This document shows positions 11,456 to 35,177 of a DNA stretch of 35,402 nt, in pieces. The number at the start of each line of letters is the position of its first letter. Position 1 is the stretch's first letter. The stretch comes from Desulfobacteraceae bacterium (lineage in GTDB: Bacteria; Desulfobacterota; Desulfobacteria; Desulfobacterales; JAABTS01), in contig JAABTS010000052.1 of NCBI GenBank assembly GCA_011389735.1, forward strand, positions 1 through 35,402, read 5' to 3'. The position numbers and the translations under genes were made by a program. The notes below the pieces were generated by a model. That model was not told where the DNA came from, made no database searches, and saw nothing but the letters and a program-made list of their open reading frames with translations.

Positions 11456-11647
11456 ATGAAGAACGTTCACAATTTCAATGCGGAAACACTTGATTTACCA
11501 CATGCTCCGAGGGGATTTGCAATCCCCGCCGACCGGGACCCGGAATACGCGGGTTACAAACCCGCTTGGAGCAGTACTTTACCTCCGGTTTGGTCCAATT
11601 TTATGGTCAATGATTGGGCATCCTTCATCTGTCAGTTTACACTTTGA
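11456..11647 (+). CDS. Doubtful 63-codon ORF carrying the cloverleaf repeat in frame
   Basis: The ATG at 11456 has GGAAGG six bases upstream and opens a 63-codon frame. Residues 16-42 are the translated repeat (HAPRGFAIPADRDPEYAGYK and onward), in the same reading frame as the copy in the PKS acyltransferase. The remaining residues resemble nothing recognised. Because the repeat is open in all three plus-strand frames, the ORF could be accidental. Confidence 0.15.
   Translation: MKNVHNFNAETLDLPHAPRGFAIPADRDPEYAGYKPAWSSTLPPVWSNFMVNDWASFICQFTL
11503..11573. repeat. Cloverleaf-like three-hairpin element, copy outside known genes
   Basis: 71-nt structured repeat. A closing stem TGCTCCGA (11503-11510) / TTGGAGCA (11566-11573) encloses three arms. 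Arm A is GGGGATT-TGC-AATCCCC (11511-11527), arm B CCGG-GAC-CCGG (11533-11543) and arm C GCGGGTT-ACA-AACCCGC (11549-11565). Homology with the copy at 28224 extends about 10-15 bp further on each side. All three plus-strand frames are free of stops. It is not a tRNA: there are no D/T-loop consensus bases and no CCA. Confidence 0.8.
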
Positions 11648-11772
11648 AATCGGGATCGTTATCGGGATCGCTATCGCTATCGAGAGCGAATTGTTTCGAT
11701 CCCGATAGCGATCCCGATCCCGATCCCGACTTGGAAAGTGTCAACCACTTTCCTGGGTTTATGAAGGATGCC
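11617..11772. repeat. Long imperfect inverted repeat with GATCGG-rich core
   Basis: Outer arms GGCATCCTTCAT (11617-11628) and ATGAAGGATGCC (11761-11772) are perfect inverted repeats. Inside them ACACTTT (11639-11645) pairs with AAAGTGT (11735-11741). The core AATCGGGATCG...GAGAGCGAA (11648-11690) faces TTCGATCCCGATAGCGATCC and onward (11695-11730). The whole forms a 156-bp hairpin-capable unit ending 13 bp from the stop codon of the PLP gene. It is MITE-like in architecture, with no transposase reading frame and no clear target duplication. It could also act as a terminator for the minus-strand gene. Confidence 0.7.
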
Positions 11773-11784
11773 AATTATTGCATA

Positions 11785-13005
11785 TCATACGATTCCAACG
11801 AAACGAACAGCTCGTTTGATCTGTTCTATCCTTTCGGACAGACTACCGGTGTATCCGATGGAAAGCCTTAGAAGGCCGGGAGAAATGCCGATTTTTTCCT
11901 GGTCTTCGGGAGGAATTTCCGATGACGTGGATGATCCGGAACAGGACATTAGCGTGTCCGAATATCCCAGGGAAACGGCAATGAGGCCGAACCGTTCTTT
12001 GTTCTGTAGAACGGACATGAGTTGCTCGGCTTTTTCCCTTGTTTTACAGTCAATCGTGAGCATGCCGCCGTAACCGAATCCTTTGTTGACCATGAATTTT
12101 AACAGTTCATGCCGGGGATGATTCGGAAGACCGGGGTAGGCGACCGGAGCCCCCATACCGTGAAGCTCTTCGGCTATTGCAAGCGCACGTCGGCCGTGTT
12201 CTTTCATCCGTATGCCCAGATGCGGCAGTCTTTGAATCACGTCAAACGCTCCTCGCGGATCCAGAGTCGGCCCGAGCAGCATGACGCGCCCAAAATGGAG
12301 ATCCATTAATTCGAGGATGAATGCTTTGGATGCGCAAATCGCGCCGCCGATCATATCGCTTCCGCCGTTGATGAATTTGGTCAGGGAATGCACTGTAACG
12401 TCCGCTCCCAATAACTCCGGCGTGATTAACATGGGAGAAAAAGTGTTATCCACTACCAGTTTAATTCCGCGTTGATGGGCGATGTCGGCCAGTTTTGGAA
12501 TATCCGCGATTTTAAGGGTGGGATTGCCGATGGTTTCCGTATAAATTACACGAGTGTTTTCCGTTATGGCGGATTCGAAGGCGCTGCTGTTTTGGGGATC
12601 CACAAAAGTTGTTTGAATATTCATCTGAGGCAGCAGTTCGCCGAGGAGCGCATGAGTTCCACCGTAAATCGTATCGCTAGACACAATATGATCGCCTGCC
12701 TTGCATAATTGAAGCAAAGTACAGGCGATAGCGGACATTCCGCTGGCGGTGCAAACCGCGTGCTCGGTTCCTTCCATCGCCGATAAATAGCGGGCCAGCG
12801 TATCCAGAGTGGGGTTGAAATGACGGCTGTAAAGAAAACAGCCGCCTTTATCCGGGCCTCTTAGGCCCGCGAATATTTCCGGCATGGTGTGGGGATCGAT
12901 GACCGTAAATGTCGATGACCTTGAAATGGAAGGCGTTACGCCTCCGTGTTCGCCGAATTCCCGCCTTGCTTTGCACATAGCCTGTTCAGGATTGAATCGC
13001 TGCAT
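11785..13005 (-). CDS. PLP-dependent Cys/Met metabolism enzyme (gamma-synthase/gamma-lyase type)
   Basis: 406 residues, full length for the cystathionine gamma-synthase / methionine gamma-lyase / O-acetylhomoserine sulfhydrylase family. Visible signatures are YSRHFNPT (Y59, R61, phosphate contacts from the partner subunit), ASGMSAI, DTIYGGTHAL (Y114, stacking on PLP), VVDNTF (D186) and SLTKFINGGSD with the Schiff-base lysine K210. The C-terminal motif is RLSIGYTG. The position after Y114-G is Gly, where typical methionine gamma-lyases have Cys, which argues weakly for a synthase, beta-lyase or sulfhydrylase. The exact reaction cannot be decided. Start ATG with GGGAGG six bases upstream. Repeat elements flank it on both sides; no methionine-pathway neighbour is present. 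Confidence 0.88.
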   Translation of the reverse strand: MQRFNPEQAMCKARREFGEHGGVTPSISRSSTFTVIDPHTMPEIFAGLRGPDKGGCFLYSRHFNPTLDTLARYLSAMEGTEHAVCTASGMSAIACTLLQLCKAGDHIVSSDTIYGGTHALLGELLPQMNIQTTFVDPQNSSAFESAITENTRVIYTETIGNPTLKIADIPKLADIAHQRGIKLVVDNTFSPMLITPELLGADVTVHSLTKFINGGSDMIGGAICASKAFILELMDLHFGRVMLLGPTLDPRGAFDVIQRLPHLGIRMKEHGRRALAIAEELHGMGAPVAYPGLPNHPRHELLKFMVNKGFGYGGMLTIDCKTREKAEQLMSVLQNKERFGLIAVSLGYSDTLMSCSGSSTSSEIPPEDQEKIGISPGLLRLSIGYTGSLSERIEQIKRAVRFVGIV

Positions 13006-13065
13006 TCGCCGCCTCCCGTCGATCAGCCGTCAGTAATCAGCAGGGAAAACTTTGTAATTGTTTGC

Positions 13066-13093
13066 CGATAGCTGATAGCTGATAGCCGATAGC
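13066..13093. repeat. Four tandem heptamers (C/T)GATAGC
   Basis: CGATAGC, TGATAGC, TGATAGC and CGATAGC run head to tail in the 100-bp gap between the PLP gene and the slr1658-type gene. This is a short simple repeat, variable-number type, with no evident function. Confidence 0.75.
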
Positions 13094-13105
13094 TGTTAAC
13101 TGTTT

Positions 13106-13711
13106 TCAGACATTCTCGTCCGACATTTCATCTCCTCTGGTCACCGCCAGCCTTACCATTGTGGTCACGCGGTAAGCGTCGCAGGTTTCGTCCGGCTTTT
13201 CAAACTTCCACGCCAGTTCAGCGTTATAATCGTTTAAAATGGTGAGCAATCCAAGCCTGGAAAACTCTTCCCCGCCTTCCGCAGCGTTCCGCTCGATACG
13301 GTCAAGATACAGGCTGGAGATGTCTTCGCAAAGGAGCCGCTCGATATAGGGCCGGAAAGAATCCGCGTCCTTGTCCGATATGCTGTTGGTGATATAAAAA
13401 AACAGATCCGACGAAACCAGATAAATTCCAATACAAATGACGTCACTGCTTGCATTGCAATTGAATTTGAGGGCGTTTTCCAGGAGTTCGTTGGTGATAT
13501 AACTGACCGCGTCCCTGATTTCATTATGGCTTTCAACTTCGGACGGCCGGGTGACCGGGAAAAAGGTTCCCCAGTATTCGGCCAGGAACTCCGCCGACAA
13601 ACTGTTGGTTTTCCATCGCTGCTGAAACGGCCGTTTGGACGCCGAGAAGCTGATGATAAAAAACTCCCTGCCCCTGTCCGGTTCAACAAAATTTCCAAAC
13701 TTTTCTAACAT
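13106..13711 (-). CDS. slr1658-type GHKL-fold ATP-binding regulator
   Basis: 201 residues. The segment YITNELLENALKFN (about 71-84) matches the N-box of GHKL ATPases, with E75 and N79. A later SRLGLLTILNDYNAELAWKFE resembles the G2 region and last strands of anti-sigma-factor-like kinases. The layout resembles the slr1658/DUF6272 superfamily, stand-alone ATP-binding regulators often found near stage-II phosphatases and anti-sigma antagonists. No such partner is in the window. The N-terminal 60 residues carry no recognised domain. ATG with AAGGAA seven bases upstream. Predicted role is a cytosolic serine kinase or switch protein, by family resemblance only. Confidence 0.7.
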   Translation of the reverse strand: MLEKFGNFVEPDRGREFFIISFSASKRPFQQRWKTNSLSAEFLAEYWGTFFPVTRPSEVESHNEIRDAVSYITNELLENALKFNCNASSDVICIGIYLVSSDLFFYITNSISDKDADSFRPYIERLLCEDISSLYLDRIERNAAEGGEEFSRLGLLTILNDYNAELAWKFEKPDETCDAYRVTTMVRLAVTRGDEMSDENV

Positions 13712-13738: not shown

Positions 13739-13844
13739 TGAATGCTAAACATCCAAATCGGGATCGGGATCGGGATCGGGATCGGGATCGAAGGATTCAA
13801 TTTCGATCCCGATAGCGATCCCGATCCCGATAGCGATATTCAAC
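13739..13844. repeat. Nested repeat: GATCGG hairpin inside a TGAATGCTAAA/ATATTCAAC inverted repeat
   Basis: Five exact ATCGGG hexamers plus a partial (13757-13790) face an inverted arm starting TTCGATCCCGATAGCGATCC (13802-13837). The right arm shares about 29 bp with the right core arm at 11695-11730. The outer flanks TGAATGCTAAAC (13739-13750) and ATATTCAAC (13836-13844) resemble the two arms of the hairpin at 11297-11364, so one repeat family appears to sit in the loop of another. The element occupies the gap between dinB and the slr1658-type gene. Confidence 0.7.
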
Positions 13845-13869
13845 ACCCTGAAACCTGCCTATCCACCGT

Positions 13870-26316: not shown

Positions 26317-29300
26317 ATGATCGATGAACAACTGCTTAACGGCTACGGGGATTCGGCGGTCGCGGTAATCGGGATGGCCGGCCGGTTTCCGGGAGCGCCC
26401 GATATCGAAACGTTCCGGCGTAACCTGAACGCCGGCGTGGAATCCATATCTTTTTTTACGCCGGAAGAACTTCTCGAATCCGGCGTTCCTCCTGAGATCG
26501 CCAATCATCCCAACTATGTCGCCGCCAAAGCCTGCCTGGAAAATATCGAATGGTTCGACGCTGAATTTTTCGGCTTTTCGCCAAAGGAGGCCATGCTCAC
26601 CGATGTTCAACACAGGGTTTTTTTGGAATGCGCGTGGACGGCGATGGAAAACGCGGGGTATGATCCGCGTCGCAACACGGCTCCGGTCGGCGTCTACGCC
26701 GGGATGGACATGAGCACATATTTTCTTCATAACCTGTATCCATACCTTTCCGTAACGCCGTCCGCGAGCGCTTTCGAGATCATGCTGGCCAATGAAAAAG
26801 ATTTCCTGGCCACGCGAACGTCCTACAAGCTGAATCTAAAAGGGCCGGCCGTCAATGTGCAGTCCGCCTGTTCCACATCGCTGACCGCGGCGCATCTGGC
26901 GTGCCAGGCGCTGCTGGCTGGCGAATGCGACATGGCTATGGCCGGCGGCGTATCCATAACCGTGCCCTCCAAAGCGGGCTATATGTACGAAGAAGGCATG
27001 ATTTTCTCAAAGGACGGCCATTGCAGGGCCTTTGACGAAAACGCCTCCGGAACCGTGGGCGGAAACGGATGCGGGATCGTGGTTCTCAAACGCTTTGAGG
27101 ACGCCGTGGCGGACGGAGATCATATTTATGCGGTCATTCGAGGATCCGCGGCCAACAATGACGGTTCCGCCAAGGCCGGTTTCACGGCCCCCGGCGCGGC
27201 CGGACAGGCGGATGTCATCGCGGAGGCCCTTTCTGTTGCGGATGTGGATCCGGAAACCGTCACTTATGTGGAAACCCACGGTACCGGCACGGTGCTTGGA
27301 GATCCCATTGAAATCGCGGCTCTGGCCGAGGCGTTTCAAACCTCCCGAAAAGGATATTGCGCCGTCGGGTCGGTCAAAACCAATATCGGCCACCTGAACT
27401 CGGCCGCCGGCGTCGTTGGCCTGATCAAGACCGTGCTGTCCTTGTATCACGGTGAAATTCCCCCGGTTGTCAATTTTGAACGTCCCAATTCCCGGATTTC
27501 TTTTGAAGACACCCCGTTCCATGTCAACACCCGCCTGGCCGAATGGTCTATGGAAGGCGCTCCCCGCAGAGCCGGCGTAAGTTCATTCGGTATCGGCGGA
27601 ACCAACGTGCATATGGTTCTTGAAGAATTTCGCTCACAGGGGATTTGCAATCCCCGGCGGCGTCGGAAGGACGCGCGGGTTACAAACCCGCTCGGAGCCG
27701 TGGTTGAAATACGAAAACATCCTGAAGAATTCAAAACCGGCGGTCATGAAAATACGAATGATAAACATGCGGATTTGAACGGCCGCGCCCGCCATCTGAT
27801 CGCCCTGTCCGCCCGTTCCAAACACGCGCTGGATATATCCGTATCCAATCTGGCGGAGTGGATAGAGGAAAAGCCGGGCGTCCGGTTACAAGACGTCGCT
27901 TACACTTTGCAGACCGGGCGGACCGCCTTTCCGATTCGCCGTATCCGGGTATGCCGGGAACTCCGGGACGCCGTTTCCAATGTGGAGCATTTGGAATCCG
28001 GGCTTGCATTCGAAGGCCGTGCGCCTGACCATCGGCCGCCGGTCGTGTTCATGTTTTCAGGCCAGGGCTCGCAATACTCCGGCATGGGACGGGGAATTTA
28101 CGACACGGAACCGGTGTTCCGGGCTCAGATCGACCTTTGCGCGGACCTTCTGGCCCCGCATATGGGGCTCGATTTAAGAGAAATTCTCTTTGAGGATTCC
28201 GGATCAGCCGATGCTTTAACCCATGCTCCGAGGGAATTTGCAAACCCCGCCGACCGGGACCCGGAATACGCGGGTTACAAACCCGCTCAGAGCAGTACTT
28301 TATCCTCACGGATAACCCGAACCGATGTGGCTCAGCCCGCATTGTTCGCTATCGAATATGCGCTTGCCCGGTTATGGATGTCCTTGGGCGTGGCGCCGGC
28401 CGCGATGATCGGCCACAGTGTCGGCGAATATACGGCCGCGTGTATTGCAGGCGTATTCCGGCTGGAAGACGCGCTGACTCTGGTGTCGGCGAGGGGGCGG
28501 CTGATGGGAAATCTTCCCGGCGGGGCCATGCTGGCCGTGTCTTTACCTGAACATCGAATCAACCGTTTGATCACCGGAAACGTTTGTATGGCGGCGGTCA
28601 ACAGCCCGTCCTTATGTACGGTTTCCGGACCGGCCCCGGAAATCAGCGCGCTGGAGGCCGAACTGGAACGACAAAACATCCCTTGCAAACGTCTTCATAC
28701 ATCCCACGCCTTCCATTCCGGGATGGTCGAACCGGTTATGAAACCGTTCTCCGAACTGGTTCGATCCGTTCCGCGAAACGCCCCGGCGATTCCTTATATT
28801 TCCAATGTCTCCGGAACCTGGATAAAGCATGAGGAAGCTGTCGATCCGGACTACTGGAGCCGTCATCTCAGAAATCCGGTCAGATTCTCTCAAGGCTTTG
28901 AAGAACTGGCGCGGCGTCCGGGTCAACTGTACCTGGAAATCGGCCCCGGCGGGACACTCTGCACCCTGGCTGCTGCTCATGTCAAAAACCCGTCGAATCC
29001 AACCATATTCTCCTCCCTGCCCCATCCGCTCGATAAAAGCGCGGATTCCGCCCGCCTTCTCAGCACACTCGGCAAATTATGGGTCAAGGGCGTTGAAATC
29101 GATTGGGAAAGCTATTACAGCCATGAACCTCACCGCCGGATTCCGCTCCCCACTTACCCGTTCGAACGAAAACGGTTCTGGATGGAGCCGCCCGCGAAAC
29201 CTTCTGTTCTTTCCGCCGGCCCGATCGACACCGTTTGCCCCGAGAGGGAATACGCGGGTTACAAACCCGCCCGGAGCAGTACCGAACCCGAAACCGTTTC

Positions 29301-32300
29301 CGACGCCGCCGCGCCAAAAACTCCTGTAGAAAAAACAGTGGCGGCTATTTTCATCGATCTGCTGGGAATTGAATCCGCGGGCGTTCACGATGATTTTTTT
29401 GAACTGGGAGGAAATTCGCTTACCGCCGCTCAGATTTTGACGAGACTTAGGGATTCGTTTCAGACGGCGCCGTCCCTTCGCCGATTTTTCCAGGGCCCCA
29501 CCATTGAAGCCGTATCGAATTTTATCGAAAAGGCCGGGGCCGATTCAGCGGCGTCACCGGAAAAAAGCCTGGAAAACGCCCTGCCGCCGATAGAACCAGT
29601 CGCCGCCGCCGAACATTATCCGGCGTCCAACGCCCAGCGGCGGTTATGGCTGTTGAGCCGCATGGGGAGCGGCAATGAAGCCTATAATATGCCCTGGGCC
29701 CTTTTGCTGAAAGGCGAACCGGACATCGCAGCCATGAAACGGTGTTTTTCGGAACTGATCTCCCGTCATGAATCCCTGAGAACAACCTTCAGGCTAGTGG
29801 ACGACGAACCCAGGCAGTACGTCGCGGATGCTATGGAAACGCCGTTCGACTATTGGGATTTGTCGAATGTCCCGGGCGCCGTGGATCGGATTCCGGACAT
29901 CATGGAACGCGAAGCCCTGAAGCCGTTCGACCTGGAAAACGGCCCGCTTATCCGCGTTCGGGTGTTCAAGACCGGGGAAAAACGCTATATCCTGCTGGTG
30001 AACATGCATCACATCATCTCCGACGGATGGTCCATGAGCGTCATCATCCGGGAATTCAGGGAATTGTACGCCGCGTTCCGGAAAGGAGCCGACTGTCCGC
30101 TCCCGCCGCTTCCCATCCAATACAAGGATTACGCCGGATGGCAGCACCGGCTGCTCGAACGTCCGGAGACCGAAAGACATAGGCGATACTGGCGTGACAA
30201 ATTGAGTGGCGATATCGCCGTTTTGAACCTGCCGGCCGATTTCACCCGTCCCGCCTATCAAACCTTTTCAGGGGACGCCGTGAGTTTTCGACTGAACGCC
30301 GAACGTACCCGAAAACTTCGGGATCTGGCCCGGAAACACCGGGTGAGTTCATTTATGACCGTTCTGGCGGTTGTCAAAGCGCTTTTGCACCGGTACACGG
30401 ATCAGGAAGATATTATCGTGGGAGCGCCCACGGCGGGCCGGATTCATCCGGATCTCGAAAACCAGGTCGGTTTTTACCTCAATACGCTGACGCTTCGGGA
30501 CCAGGTATCCGGAGACGCCCCGTTTTCCGATCTTTTGAAACAGGTCGCCCAAACCGCGGCCGAAGCCTTTGACCATCAGTCGTATCCGTTCGACCGGCTC
30601 GTGGACGAACTGCCGCTGCACAGAGACATCAGCCGGTCGCCCCTTTTTGACGTGCTTGTCGTCATGCAGAACATTCAGCCCGTTGACCTGTCGCTCCCGG
30701 ATCTCCAAATTTCCGTCATGGAAAACGTGGCGGCGGTCAGCAAATACGATCTGACGTTTGAATTTTTCGATCATGAGGATGAAATCCCGGTCAACCTGAA
30801 ATACAACACCGATATTTTTCTCCGGGAACGAATCCGGCGAATGGCGGGGCATCTGGAAACGCTGATTGACAGCATCGCCGATGATGATTCCCGGCCGGTC
30901 GGAGGTTTGAATATTTTGACGGCGGACGAACGGGTTCAATTGACGGCTGAGTTCAACGACACGCGCCGGAATTTTCCTGAATCTGAAACCGTGGCGGCGA
31001 TGGTCGAAAAACAGGCCGCCCGCACTCCGGATCGAACCGCCCTGATTTTTGAAGACCGTCGTGTGGCCTATAGCGATTTCAACGCCGCCGCCAACAGCAT
31101 CGCCCGCCGGTTGATCGATGCAGGCTCCGGCCCCGGAATGAGGATCGCTGTTCTGGCGGACCGGTCTCCTGAAACCGCGGCGGCCGTGTTCGCCGTTCTC
31201 AAAACCGGCGCCGCGGTTTTGGGCGTCGATCCCGAATATCCGCCGGAACGAATCGCTTTCATGGCCGACGACGCGTCAATCGAGATCATGCTGGTCATGA
31301 AAACATACGAATCACTGGTCGATCCCGAAAAACAGAGGCTTATCGTGTTCGATTCAATCGATACGACGATGGGGGAACCGAATCCGGGCCGAATGATCGA
31401 TCCGAACAGCCCGGCGTATATCGTTTACACATCCGGTTCCACCGGCTTGCCCAAAGGCGTACTCAACACGCACCTCGGGTTGGGCAACCAGTTGCAATGG
31501 CGAAACAGTTTTTTCAATCCGCAACCGGATGATAAAATACTCCATAAGACCCAGCCGTCCTTCGATAATTCCGTGTGGGAGATTTTTCATCCCTTGAGTT
31601 GCGGAGCGGCCGTTGTCATCGCGAAACCCGGCGGCCATAAGGATGCGGCCTATATCCGGGATTTGATTCAGGAACACCGGATCACCACGGCGCATTTCGT
31701 CCCGTCCATGCTTCGGATTTTTTTGGATACGCCGGGCGTGGAACATTGCACGTCTCTGAAACGAATCTTATCCGGAGGCGAACCGCTCCCCGCCGATTTG
31801 CTGAATGAATGCAAAAAACGCCTGCCCGCCGATGTTTACAATCTTTACGGCCAGTCGGAAACGGCCATGAACGTCACGGTGTATCCTTGCAAACATCATG
31901 ACGGGCAATCCGAAGTTCCTATAGGGCGGCCCCTCGCCAACACCCGGATTTATATCACCGACAGGCGGATGAATTTGCAGCCGATCGGCGTACCCGGCGA
32001 ATTGCTCGTGGCCGGCCGGGGCCTGGCGAAGGAATATATCAACCGCCCTGAATTGAACCTATCCCGATTCATTTCCAACCCCTTTGAACCGGAATCCGGC
32101 GGCCGGCTGTTCAAGACCGGCGATGTGGGCCGATGGCTGTCCGGCGGCGATATCCTTTTATCCGGCCGGAACGACGATCAGATCAAAATTCGCGGATACC
32201 GAATCGAACCAGGGGAAATCGAACGGCGGCTGACGGCTCACCCCGCAGTACACCGGGCCGCGGTCAAATCGACGGAAGTCGACGGAATTCAGGAACTTAC

Positions 32301-33630
32301 GGCCTACCTGACACCCGCGGACGGCGGGCCGCCGGATGCGCAAACATTACGGGATCATGTCAAAAAAGCCCTTCCTTATTATATGGTCCCTTCCCGATTC
32401 GTATTTCTGGACACCCTGCCTCTGACGGCCGGCGGAAAACTGGATCGAAAAAAATTGACCCCGGATACGGGAATGGCCGAAATGGAACGAAAAACGGAAA
32501 AGCCTGGGAACGAAACGGAAATCAGGCTGGCCGCGATCTGGTCGGAACTGCTCAACGTAAATAGTGTTGGAATAAGAGACAATTTTTTCGATCTGGGGGG
32601 CCACAGCCTGAGAGCGGCCCGGATGGTGGGAAAAATACACAAAACCTTCGGCATGGAAATCCCGCTGGGCGATATTTTCCTCCACCCGACCATTGCGGAA
32701 CTGGCGGATAGAATCCGAAGGGGACAGTCTCCAGCTCCGGACGCCGCAGAATCCTTTTCGCCGCTGGCCTGCATTCAGGCCCACGGCCGCAAACCGCCGA
32801 TGTTTTTTGTCCATATCGCACGCGGCGATGTGTTTTGTTATGCGGAACTGTCCAGAGCGCTCGGGCCGGACTACCCGTTCTATGGGCTTCGGGCCTTCGG
32901 GCTAGATCCGGGAACATCGCCGCTGACCCGTGTCGAAGACATGGCGGCCGCCTATATCGACGCCATTCAATCGGTTTACCCGCATGGACCGTATATTATC
33001 GGCGGCCATTCCCGAGGCGGGGTCGTCGCTTATGAAATGGCGCAACAATTCAAAGCGCGAGGCGAAGACATTCCGGCGATCATTTTTATCGACGCATTCG
33101 CCCCCGATTTTCTTGAAAGGCCTGAAAATTTATGGGATTACTTCATGCAATTCAAGCATGTCGTCGCCGTCGATGATATACCGGATTTTTACAGCCGGAT
33201 CCGGGGAATCGATATCCGAAACGGTATGGACGGCGTAAAGGCGGATTTTCTGTCGCTTTCCAGGAACGAGCAATTGGATGTCATGCTGGAAGGCGCTAAA
33301 CGGTCTAACGTGTTCGACGAGGATATTTCGGACGTGGATACGGCCTTGCAGCGCAGGATCGTCCGAGTCGCCGTGGAAAGCGGGCTTTCGGTGGCGCGAT
33401 ATCAAAGCATGAAGCCCTATGAGGGCAGGATCATACTGTTTCGAGCCACGGACAACCTGTTCGTCAAACATTTCGCCGTGCGAATGGACGACGACCCGGC
33501 CCTTGGATGGGGACGACATGCAAACCATATCGAAACCCACGATATCGACGGCGCGGATCATGCGTCGATTGTTCAACATCCTTATGTCGCGCGGCTGGCC
33601 CAAAAACTGGCGGACCGTCTGCAGAGATGA
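26317..33630 (+). CDS. Hybrid PKS-NRPS: KS-AT-ACP-C-A-PCP-TE
   Basis: 2437 residues. The KS (about 12-435) has an intact triad: Cys in VQSACSTSL, His in ETHGTGT and in KTNIGHLNSAAG. The AT (about 574-900) has GHSVGEY and HAFHS, the malonyl-CoA type. The ACP has S1034 (LGGNSL). The C domain (about 1100-1540) has HHIISDGWS (H1231). The A domain (about 1560-2055) has YTSGSTGLPKG near 1704. The PCP has S2097 (LGGHSLRAARM). The TE (about 2150-2437) has nucleophile S2232 in GGHSRGG and a late His in ADHASIVQHP. No KR, DH, ER or MT is present, so the malonate unit should stay a beta-ketone. Specificity positions read D-N-W-H-L-G-L-M-N-(K), unassigned, partly serine-like. Three structured repeats are inserted in frame at residues about 440-462, 635-661 and 974-990. 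Starts 16 bp after the previous gene; ribosome binding site weak. Confidence 0.95.
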   Translation: MIDEQLLNGYGDSAVAVIGMAGRFPGAPDIETFRRNLNAGVESISFFTPEELLESGVPPEIANHPNYVAAKACLENIEWFDAEFFGFSPKEAMLTDVQHRVFLECAWTAMENAGYDPRRNTAPVGVYAGMDMSTYFLHNLYPYLSVTPSASAFEIMLANEKDFLATRTSYKLNLKGPAVNVQSACSTSLTAAHLACQALLAGECDMAMAGGVSITVPSKAGYMYEEGMIFSKDGHCRAFDENASGTVGGNGCGIVVLKRFEDAVADGDHIYAVIRGSAANNDGSAKAGFTAPGAAGQADVIAEALSVADVDPETVTYVETHGTGTVLGDPIEIAALAEAFQTSRKGYCAVGSVKTNIGHLNSAAGVVGLIKTVLSLYHGEIPPVVNFERPNSRISFEDTPFHVNTRLAEWSMEGAPRRAGVSSFGIGGTNVHMVLEEFRSQGICNPRRRRKDARVTNPLGAVVEIRKHPEEFKTGGHENTNDKHADLNGRARHLIALSARSKHALDISVSNLAEWIEEKPGVRLQDVAYTLQTGRTAFPIRRIRVCRELRDAVSNVEHLESGLAFEGRAPDHRPPVVFMFSGQGSQYSGMGRGIYDTEPVFRAQIDLCADLLAPHMGLDLREILFEDSGSADALTHAPREFANPADRDPEYAGYKPAQSSTLSSRITRTDVAQPALFAIEYALARLWMSLGVAPAAMIGHSVGEYTAACIAGVFRLEDALTLVSARGRLMGNLPGGAMLAVSLPEHRINRLITGNVCMAAVNSPSLCTVSGPAPEISALEAELERQNIPCKRLHTSHAFHSGMVEPVMKPFSELVRSVPRNAPAIPYISNVSGTWIKHEEAVDPDYWSRHLRNPVRFSQGFEELARRPGQLYLEIGPGGTLCTLAAAHVKNPSNPTIFSSLPHPLDKSADSARLLSTLGKLWVKGVEIDWESYYSHEPHRRIPLPTYPFERKRFWMEPPAKPSVLSAGPIDTVCPEREYAGYKPARSSTEPETVSDAAAPKTPVEKTVAAIFIDLLGIESAGVHDDFFELGGNSLTAAQILTRLRDSFQTAPSLRRFFQGPTIEAVSNFIEKAGADSAASPEKSLENALPPIEPVAAAEHYPASNAQRRLWLLSRMGSGNEAYNMPWALLLKGEPDIAAMKRCFSELISRHESLRTTFRLVDDEPRQYVADAMETPFDYWDLSNVPGAVDRIPDIMEREALKPFDLENGPLIRVRVFKTGEKRYILLVNMHHIISDGWSMSVIIREFRELYAAFRKGADCPLPPLPIQYKDYAGWQHRLLERPETERHRRYWRDKLSGDIAVLNLPADFTRPAYQTFSGDAVSFRLNAERTRKLRDLARKHRVSSFMTVLAVVKALLHRYTDQEDIIVGAPTAGRIHPDLENQVGFYLNTLTLRDQVSGDAPFSDLLKQVAQTAAEAFDHQSYPFDRLVDELPLHRDISRSPLFDVLVVMQNIQPVDLSLPDLQISVMENVAAVSKYDLTFEFFDHEDEIPVNLKYNTDIFLRERIRRMAGHLETLIDSIADDDSRPVGGLNILTADERVQLTAEFNDTRRNFPESETVAAMVEKQAARTPDRTALIFEDRRVAYSDFNAAANSIARRLIDAGSGPGMRIAVLADRSPETAAAVFAVLKTGAAVLGVDPEYPPERIAFMADDASIEIMLVMKTYESLVDPEKQRLIVFDSIDTTMGEPNPGRMIDPNSPAYIVYTSGSTGLPKGVLNTHLGLGNQLQWRNSFFNPQPDDKILHKTQPSFDNSVWEIFHPLSCGAAVVIAKPGGHKDAAYIRDLIQEHRITTAHFVPSMLRIFLDTPGVEHCTSLKRILSGGEPLPADLLNECKKRLPADVYNLYGQSETAMNVTVYPCKHHDGQSEVPIGRPLANTRIYITDRRMNLQPIGVPGELLVAGRGLAKEYINRPELNLSRFISNPFEPESGGRLFKTGDVGRWLSGGDILLSGRNDDQIKIRGYRIEPGEIERRLTAHPAVHRAAVKSTEVDGIQELTAYLTPADGGPPDAQTLRDHVKKALPYYMVPSRFVFLDTLPLTAGGKLDRKKLTPDTGMAEMERKTEKPGNETEIRLAAIWSELLNVNSVGIRDNFFDLGGHSLRAARMVGKIHKTFGMEIPLGDIFLHPTIAELADRIRRGQSPAPDAAESFSPLACIQAHGRKPPMFFVHIARGDVFCYAELSRALGPDYPFYGLRAFGLDPGTSPLTRVEDMAAAYIDAIQSVYPHGPYIIGGHSRGGVVAYEMAQQFKARGEDIPAIIFIDAFAPDFLERPENLWDYFMQFKHVVAVDDIPDFYSRIRGIDIRNGMDGVKADFLSLSRNEQLDVMLEGAKRSNVFDEDISDVDTALQRRIVRVAVESGLSVARYQSMKPYEGRIILFRATDNLFVKHFAVRMDDDPALGWGRHANHIETHDIDGADHASIVQHPYVARLAQKLADRLQR
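27632..27698. repeat. Cloverleaf-like element in the KS-AT linker, variant middle arm
   Basis: Arm A GGGGATT-TGC-AATCCCC (27639-27655) and arm C GCGGGTT-ACA-AACCCGC (27675-27691) are identical to the intergenic copy. The middle arm is an unrelated hairpin, GCGTC-GGAAG-GACGC (27660-27674). The closing stem is only GCTC/GAGC. It is read in a different frame from the other PKS copies (giving GICNPRRRRKD, then ARVTNPLGA). It lies just after the KS C-terminal VHMVLEE. Confidence 0.8.
28224..28294. repeat. Cloverleaf-like element inside the acyltransferase domain
   Basis: A near-identical 71-nt copy of the intergenic element, with closing stem TGCTCCGAG (28224-28232) / CTCAGAGCA (28286-28294) carrying one mismatch. 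Arm A has two stem mismatches; the GGACCCGG middle arm and GCGGGTTACAAACCCGC arm are intact. It encodes HAPREFANPADRDPEYAGYK and onward, in frame between LREILFEDSGSADALT and TDVAQPALFAIEYAL, at a variable-looking loop of the AT fold. Confidence 0.85.
29236..29278. repeat. Shortened cloverleaf-like element in the AT-ACP linker
   Basis: A 43-nt derivative. The left flank TGCCCCGAG and right flank CCCGGAGCA enclose only arm C (GCGGGTTACAAACCCGC, 29254-29270); arms A and B are missing. It encodes EYAGYKPARSST in the same frame as the AT copy and lies between the post-AT motif PFERKRFWMEPP and the ACP. Confidence 0.75.
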
Positions 33631-35127: not shown

Positions 35128-35160
35128 CAACCCCCGAAGAAGATTTGAAATACGCTCTAA

Positions 35161-35177
35161 GGGGGTTTGCAACCCCC
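35161..35177. repeat. Orphan arm-A-like hairpin, second
   Basis: GGGGGTT-TGC-AACCCCC: 7-bp stem with the same TGC loop and TT/AA closing pairs as the other arm-A hairpins. Confidence 0.6.

Follow-up and report, generated by a model that had tools for sequence, protein, structure and literature searches.

A PKS-NRPS hybrid gene in the window (the whole 35,402-nt stretch of DNA analysed here, from a Desulfobacteraceae bacterium) carries three in-frame copies of a palindromic element within its KS-AT-ACP part. The element belongs to a palindromic family that is scattered through the genome and bears the hallmarks of mobile DNA. We assign a probability of roughly 0.72 to the reading that its members are non-autonomous mobile palindromes, occurring both as the core of a MITE and in a bare form, and that insertions of them into the PKS survived in tolerant linkers and a tolerant loop.

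The host gene (26317..33630, forward strand) encodes a protein of 2437 aa with the order KS-AT-ACP-C-A-PCP-TE, as recognised from the open frame and from Pfam matches to ketoacyl-synt, Acyl_transf_1, PP-binding (two stretches), Condensation, AMP-binding and Thioesterase. The frame is open over 7.3 kb with positive codon scores on either side of each element copy, and the KS Cys185 is invariant across the homologue alignment. The synthase domains are still recognisable despite the inserts, and we infer that the synthase is probably a working one. The three in-frame copies that a first-pass annotation of this DNA had placed in the gene were all present in an nhmmer search, and their positions in the KS-AT linker, an AT-domain loop and the AT-ACP linker agree with the Pfam matches. 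Copy 1 (27632..27698, RSQGICNPRRRRKDARVTNPLGA) and copy 2 (28225..28293, APREFANPADRDPEYAGYKPAQS) are full cores on the forward strand, each aligned over all 69 profile positions. Copy 3 (29231..29277, forward strand, EREYAGYKPARS) is partial, with 47 profile positions matched; its right hairpin is kept and its left hairpin mostly lost, so the three annotated copies amount to two full elements and a truncated one. Copy 1 begins near residue 439, where the PF16197 match (390-448) tails off, upstream of a CurL-like linker match (493-554), copy 2 lies within the AT match (residues 577-882), and copy 3 sits between the AT and the following ACP. The sub-family of copy 1 is not that of copy 2. The second and third copies use one reading frame, have the sequence GAATACGCGGGTTACAAACCCGC in common and encode the peptide core EYAGYKPA named in the annotation, whereas copy 1 is read in another frame, as RSQGICNP...ARVTNPL.

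Elsewhere in the window, a full copy of the sub-family of copy 2 is found outside long ORFs (11504..11572, forward strand; core 94% identical to copy 2), and a half element of the left-hairpin type lies close to the window end (35154..35177, forward strand). No known Rfam family matched within the window above its gathering score. The intergenic copy is contained in a short open frame of 64 codons (11456-11644), which reads MKNVHNFNAETLDLP ahead of the element, after GGGAAGG, and then reads the element in the frame used by PKS copies 2 and 3; this open frame is possibly a remnant gene. Simple-repeat palindromes of GATCCC/GGGATC at 11649-11741 and 13743-13845 flank the ORFs at 11785-13711, and like runs occur elsewhere in the genome.

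A few hundred copies of the element are present in its own genome. The right hairpin (at most 3 mismatches) was found at 488 genome places (242 + 246), a figure to which a second, longer repeat family carrying this hairpin also contributes, compared with 17 (8 + 9) for a reversed control; the left half (at most 2 mismatches) was found at 273 places (146 + 127) compared with 0 in the control. These counts set the PKS copies apart from chance matches and bear out the earlier suggestion of a spreading palindromic family with further copies in the genome. The second family contains GGGCTTGATTCTAAGATCGGCCGGAGCGCCAGGGTAAGCC and the same two hairpin types, and it occupies many loci of this genome, for example L013:4176-4240 and L021:16497-16560. 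Among 389 genomes of the order, which are a draw from a larger group and include no other genome of the host's own family or genus, the left-half pattern was confined to its own genome (1 of 389). A looser pattern with 3 mismatches matched 2 of 58 genomes of the order, the element's own and G006; the latter match was rejected as a member of the family, its palindrome GCCGGACGGGRTTTGCAAYCCCGTCCGGC being a different one with the loop TTTGCAA in common. That palindrome with the same loop is itself repeated in G006 (L164:8070-8230). A profile search of a sample of 101 genome stretches (1,903,443 bases, window included, mostly picked for having matches) gave 171 copies, of which 126 are full and 45 partial; tandem arrays of the element were seen at loci L019 and L077.

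The core of the element measures about 69 nt and is built of two hairpins in the order GCTC tag, hairpin GGGGATTTGCAATCCCC, a spacer of about 20 nt, hairpin GCGGGTTACAAACCCGC and GAGC. Its majority sequence, taken from 56 distinct 69-nt copies, starts with GCTCCAAGGGGATTTGCAATCCCC and ends with GCGGGTTACAAACCCGCTCAGAGC. The predicted fold of the intergenic copy, an outer stem with three hairpins at -36.6 kcal/mol, has the cloverleaf-like form that had been described for the element; copy 2 has mismatches in the left hairpin and a poorer predicted fold (-28.7 kcal/mol). The hairpin pairs are conserved with zero double changes in both hairpins, so covariation gives no evidence either way. The core is GC-rich and stop-poor. 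The intergenic copy is free of stops in the three forward frames, as had been noted, and 42% of 118 sampled cores have all three open, compared with 15% of dinucleotide shuffles, an excess that is the property of one family because the cores are related. Cores are open more often than shuffles in five of the six frames, and the sixth is closed in 93% of them.

The element occurs in two forms. Flanks were readable for 123 cores, of which 68 have both TIRs, 16 the left only, 7 the right only and 32 neither (bare cores). The first form is a MITE of about 125 bp with the TIRs GTGGCTGAACGAAAA and TTTTCGTTCAGGCAC and the element as its core, and the 68 cores with both TIRs have these without coding capacity, as in a MITE. 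The right-TIR pattern was found at 111 + 115 genome places compared with 0 in the control. Short target-site duplications, a further MITE feature, are also present: an exact 6-nt duplication lies outside the TIRs in 32 of 66 measurable MITE copies compared with 5.5% of mismatched pairs, and at least 5 of the 6 nt are duplicated in 51 of the 66 compared with 27.5%. PKS copies 1 and 2 are bare cores, the intergenic copy of the window has neither TIR, and copy 3 is too short for TIR classing.

Some bare cores are flanked by longer duplications. Perfect duplications of 18 nt and 11 nt, both 96 nt start-to-start, flank the bare cores in L011 and in L096 (a kinase gene), and the intergenic bare cores in L089 and L023 have duplications with 16/17 and 10/10 nt identical; a clear flanking duplication is absent at most other bare cores. 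Among mismatched flank pairs, a score of at least 9 is reached by 2.4% and of at least 11 by 0.8%. For copy 1, the flank-pair scan gave a probable 12-nt duplication with TCTTGAAGAATT as the left member (27618..27629, forward strand) and TCCTGAAGAATT as the right (27720..27731, forward strand); the two are 11/12 identical and 102 nt apart start-to-start, a multiple of three, with a score reached by 2.4% of mismatched pairs. At copies 2 and 3 the candidate pairs, chosen by eye, are weak. That of copy 2 (28216..28318, forward strand) consists of the 7-nt TTAACCC and ATAACCC at 28216 and 28312, 6/7 identical and 96 nt start-to-start; the best-scoring pair there, 10/12 identical and 109 nt apart, is out of frame. 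That of copy 3 (29227..29299, forward strand) consists of the 10-nt GACACCGTTT and GAAACCGTTT at 29227 and 29290, 9/10 identical and 63 nt start-to-start, and differs from the choice of the automatic scan. The distances at the five gene copies (L011, L096 and PKS copies 1-3) all divide by three, as genuine insertions would need to, the in-frame pairs having been deliberately selected at copies 2 and 3.

It is conceivable, if distinctly improbable, that the bare cores make up a third kind of REP dimer, with a GCTC tag, and that a non-RAYT enzyme which makes 10-18-nt duplications moves them, element and duplication together measuring about 96 nt (32 codons); insertion of such a unit would tend to preserve reading frames. 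The 96-nt distances at L011, at L096 and in the weak pair of copy 2 fit such a unit, as do the 95-97 nt between neighbouring copies in the arrays of L019, L072 and L077, while the 63, 88, 99 and 102 nt of other copies and the 90 and 88 nt of the L026 and L085 arrays speak against it.

Coding-like ORFs make up about 76% of the sample; 159 of the 171 copies lie wholly outside them, 6 partly and 6 wholly inside. Five of the 171 are in frame inside genes: the three of the PKS, one in a histidine kinase gene with a weak dCache match (L096:12674-12741) and one in a signal peptide (L011:5769-5835), the element being on the reverse strand in the last two. The L011 protein is without a Pfam match, and its status as a gene comes from the downstream codon score and the signal-peptide-like start. 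One copy of the MITE form (L069:17819-17887, C46:37819) lies in a frame that stops just past the element, and it appears, from the protein as read by eye, to truncate a substrate-binding-protein-like gene. Every full copy in frame in a gene is a bare core (4/32 bare cores vs 0/68 MITE copies; one-sided Fisher about 0.009, hand calculation); the value becomes about 0.035, also by hand, once the truncating L069 copy is added as a fifth gene copy. By a further hand calculation, three of five in-gene copies would fall in one gene by chance about 3 times in 10,000, in a window that was picked for that clustering. Peptide searches of the whole genome in five frames, with candidates taken only among the matches listed (about 150 scored per frame), brought up further long open frames. 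Those in C176, C407, C436 and C194 were read as upstream of a start codon, those in C467, C206, C434 and C465:8237 had a poor codon score on one or both sides, and those in C2 and C465:17332 had stops within the element; all were rejected as in-gene copies.

The PKS was aligned with 15 homologous reading frames from 14 loci. The closest are 36-49% identical, too distant for base-exact empty sites; one homologue, at 47% identity, comes from a Desulfobacterales record (L103). The site 1 peptide is absent in 15/15 of these frames and the site 2 peptide in 14/14 of those that cover the site; at site 3 the variability of the linker precludes a judgement on the insert. The finding that had been named as speaking against insertion, homologues with the same peptides at the same positions, was thus not encountered at sites 1 and 2. 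In the alignment with 8xju, the closest PDB match by sequence, there is a gap at site 2. A Methylococcaceae PKS (L101) has an unrelated insertion in the AT loop that holds copy 2, hinting that this loop may tolerate inserts generally. In AlphaFold2 predictions from the 15-row alignment, the best of five models had a mean pLDDT of 79.8 (the others 58.1 to 72.0) and fell below 50 at residues 1-5, 145-149, 442-489, 628-660 and 961-996, the last three being insertion sites 1, 2 and 3. Low pLDDT at these sites is partly expected because no other alignment row has residues there. Since homologues are without inserts 1 and 2 and the low-pLDDT stretches coincide with the insertion sites, the PKS peptides are most likely insertions in tolerant loops.

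We therefore favour a reading in which non-autonomous palindromes of REP-dimer build exist either as the core of a MITE of about 125 bp, with 6-nt AT-rich target duplications, or as a bare core. Where a bare core with its duplication added a multiple of three to an open frame, the gene would survive with about 20-35 extra residues, and other gene hits would be lost through selection. At least two, and probably three, separate PKS insertions would have survived, because their sites are linkers and a loop that look disordered; the two sub-families and the different frames argue for separate events. Local gene conversion or duplication might instead have spread a single PKS insertion to the other two sites, which we regard as unlikely. 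Such copying would account for the frame and sequence that copies 2 and 3 have in common, and it is consistent with the likeness of copy 2 to the intergenic copy 16.7 kb away and with the tandem arrays elsewhere; but copy 1 differs in sub-family and frame, the core of copy 2 is slightly closer to a copy on another contig (L078, 96%) than to the intergenic one (94%), and the flanking sequences are unlike among the three sites.

The notion of the first-pass annotation that the element is adapted to survive inside proteins found no support, since genes are avoided and the reading frame varies from copy to copy. An RPE-like module selected for its encoded peptide, a very improbable account to begin with, was rejected on the same grounds: the openness of the cores in five of six frames and the in-frame copies in three genes would suit it, yet the differing frames within the PKS and the reverse-strand reading of the L096 and L011 copies leave no common peptide, and in-frame gene copies are few among those sampled. 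A role of the structured repeats in the mRNA, such as translation pauses at domain boundaries for which they were kept, has in its favour the strength of the hairpins and the location of sites 1 and 3; we give it very low odds, as site 2 falls within a domain, the two adjoining NRPS genes have similar domain boundaries without an element copy, and the left hairpin of copy 2 is impaired. Just as improbable is an error of assembly or a gene in decay. The genome is a draft of 477 contigs, several of which have repeats close to an end, but the sequence differences among the three copies and the long open frame with its positive codon scores and expected domains speak against this account.

The insertions of the preferred reading would require enzymes that move the element, and we infer that such enzymes have acted. 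The strict version of a TIR-pair scan returned 15 pairs, the loose version having given too many chance matches. With about one third of the genome scanned, Pfam found no transposase among ten ORFs between TIR pairs, which encode a zinc/iron-chelating-domain protein, a sigma factor, a lactamase-fold protein, an rRNA methylase, a GTP cyclohydrolase, a chemotaxis protein and GrpE or are without a Pfam match. Y1_Tnp has six matches in the genome, with related hairpins in two of the six loci (about 1.7-3.3 kb each). One of these Y1 transposases, on C60, was considered as a RAYT origin of the element and rejected, its gene being flanked by palindromes of its own, GTTCCCACGCTCTGCGTGGGAAC; the gene is near the Pfam cut-off of 23, with 23.5 bits in one search and 21.8 in another. 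At this locus (L096:4857-5800), a tyrosine transposase of the REP-associated type has these palindromes on both sides, followed by a partial tandem duplication of the gene, and the locus adjoins the disrupted left end of a MITE of the present element family.

Three in-frame insertions in one KS-AT-ACP module mark sites, including one within the AT domain, at which a PKS may accept foreign peptides; this is useful for megasynthase engineering. They amount to a natural test of peptide tolerance in large enzymes and not to a new principle, similar in-frame hits being known in other bacteria, and they extend intragenic palindromes to another tag (GCTC) and host lineage. The contrast between bare cores and MITE-borne copies in their presence within genes is testable. 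At the level of titles and abstracts, no such element inside a PKS was found in the open-access papers searched.

In a REPIN, two inverted REPs and a spacer form one mobile unit that is moved by a RAYT. The present element is similarly made of two inverted units with a spacer, but it differs in the duplications at some bare cores, and a link to a RAYT was not found. Enzymes of the IS200/IS605 type are not known to make target duplications. In Di Nocera et al. (2013; PMC3733652), REP singles and dimers are mostly intergenic, those inside ORFs encode 20-30 aa, some ORFs are hit twice, linkers or loops are suggested as the tolerant sites, and in A. variabilis REP dimers of one family are nested in longer palindromes. 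Set against the GTAG/CGTC super-families of that source, the element is alike in its inverted hairpin pairs, its many copies and its mainly intergenic location, and unlike in its consensus hairpin foot, which is GCTC, so the tag that defines them is missing. Compared with the REP dimers as described there, it stands out by three copies in one gene, by 10-18-nt duplications at a few bare cores and by the lack of a linked RAYT in our searches.

RPEs are reported in PMC10969869 and PMC3733652 to be about 150 bp long, to encode a conserved peptide and to lie in ORFs in nearly half of cases. In-frame insertion into genes is common to both; the present element is about 69 nt long, has 5 of 171 sampled copies in frame in genes and encodes no conserved peptide in one frame, since the frames differ in the PKS and the copies in L096 and L011 are read from the reverse strand. 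The likeness to RPEs is an apt analogy, not membership. An architecture unlike that of RPEs had been claimed for the element, and its tag is indeed neither GTAG nor CGTC, but hairpin dimers inside genes had already been described in 2013 (PMC3733652). QMITE2 of Coxiella, as presented in PMC5896051, is a MITE of 150-190 bp with a GTAG REP inside and variable 7-11-nt direct repeats, and two hypothetical ORFs are named there as holding in-frame copies. It resembles the present family in the REP-type core within a MITE, the direct repeats and the in-frame copies, and differs in its size and its GTAG tag. The PKS case belongs to the intragenic REP-dimer kind, ordinary in principle and unusual in number and host gene.
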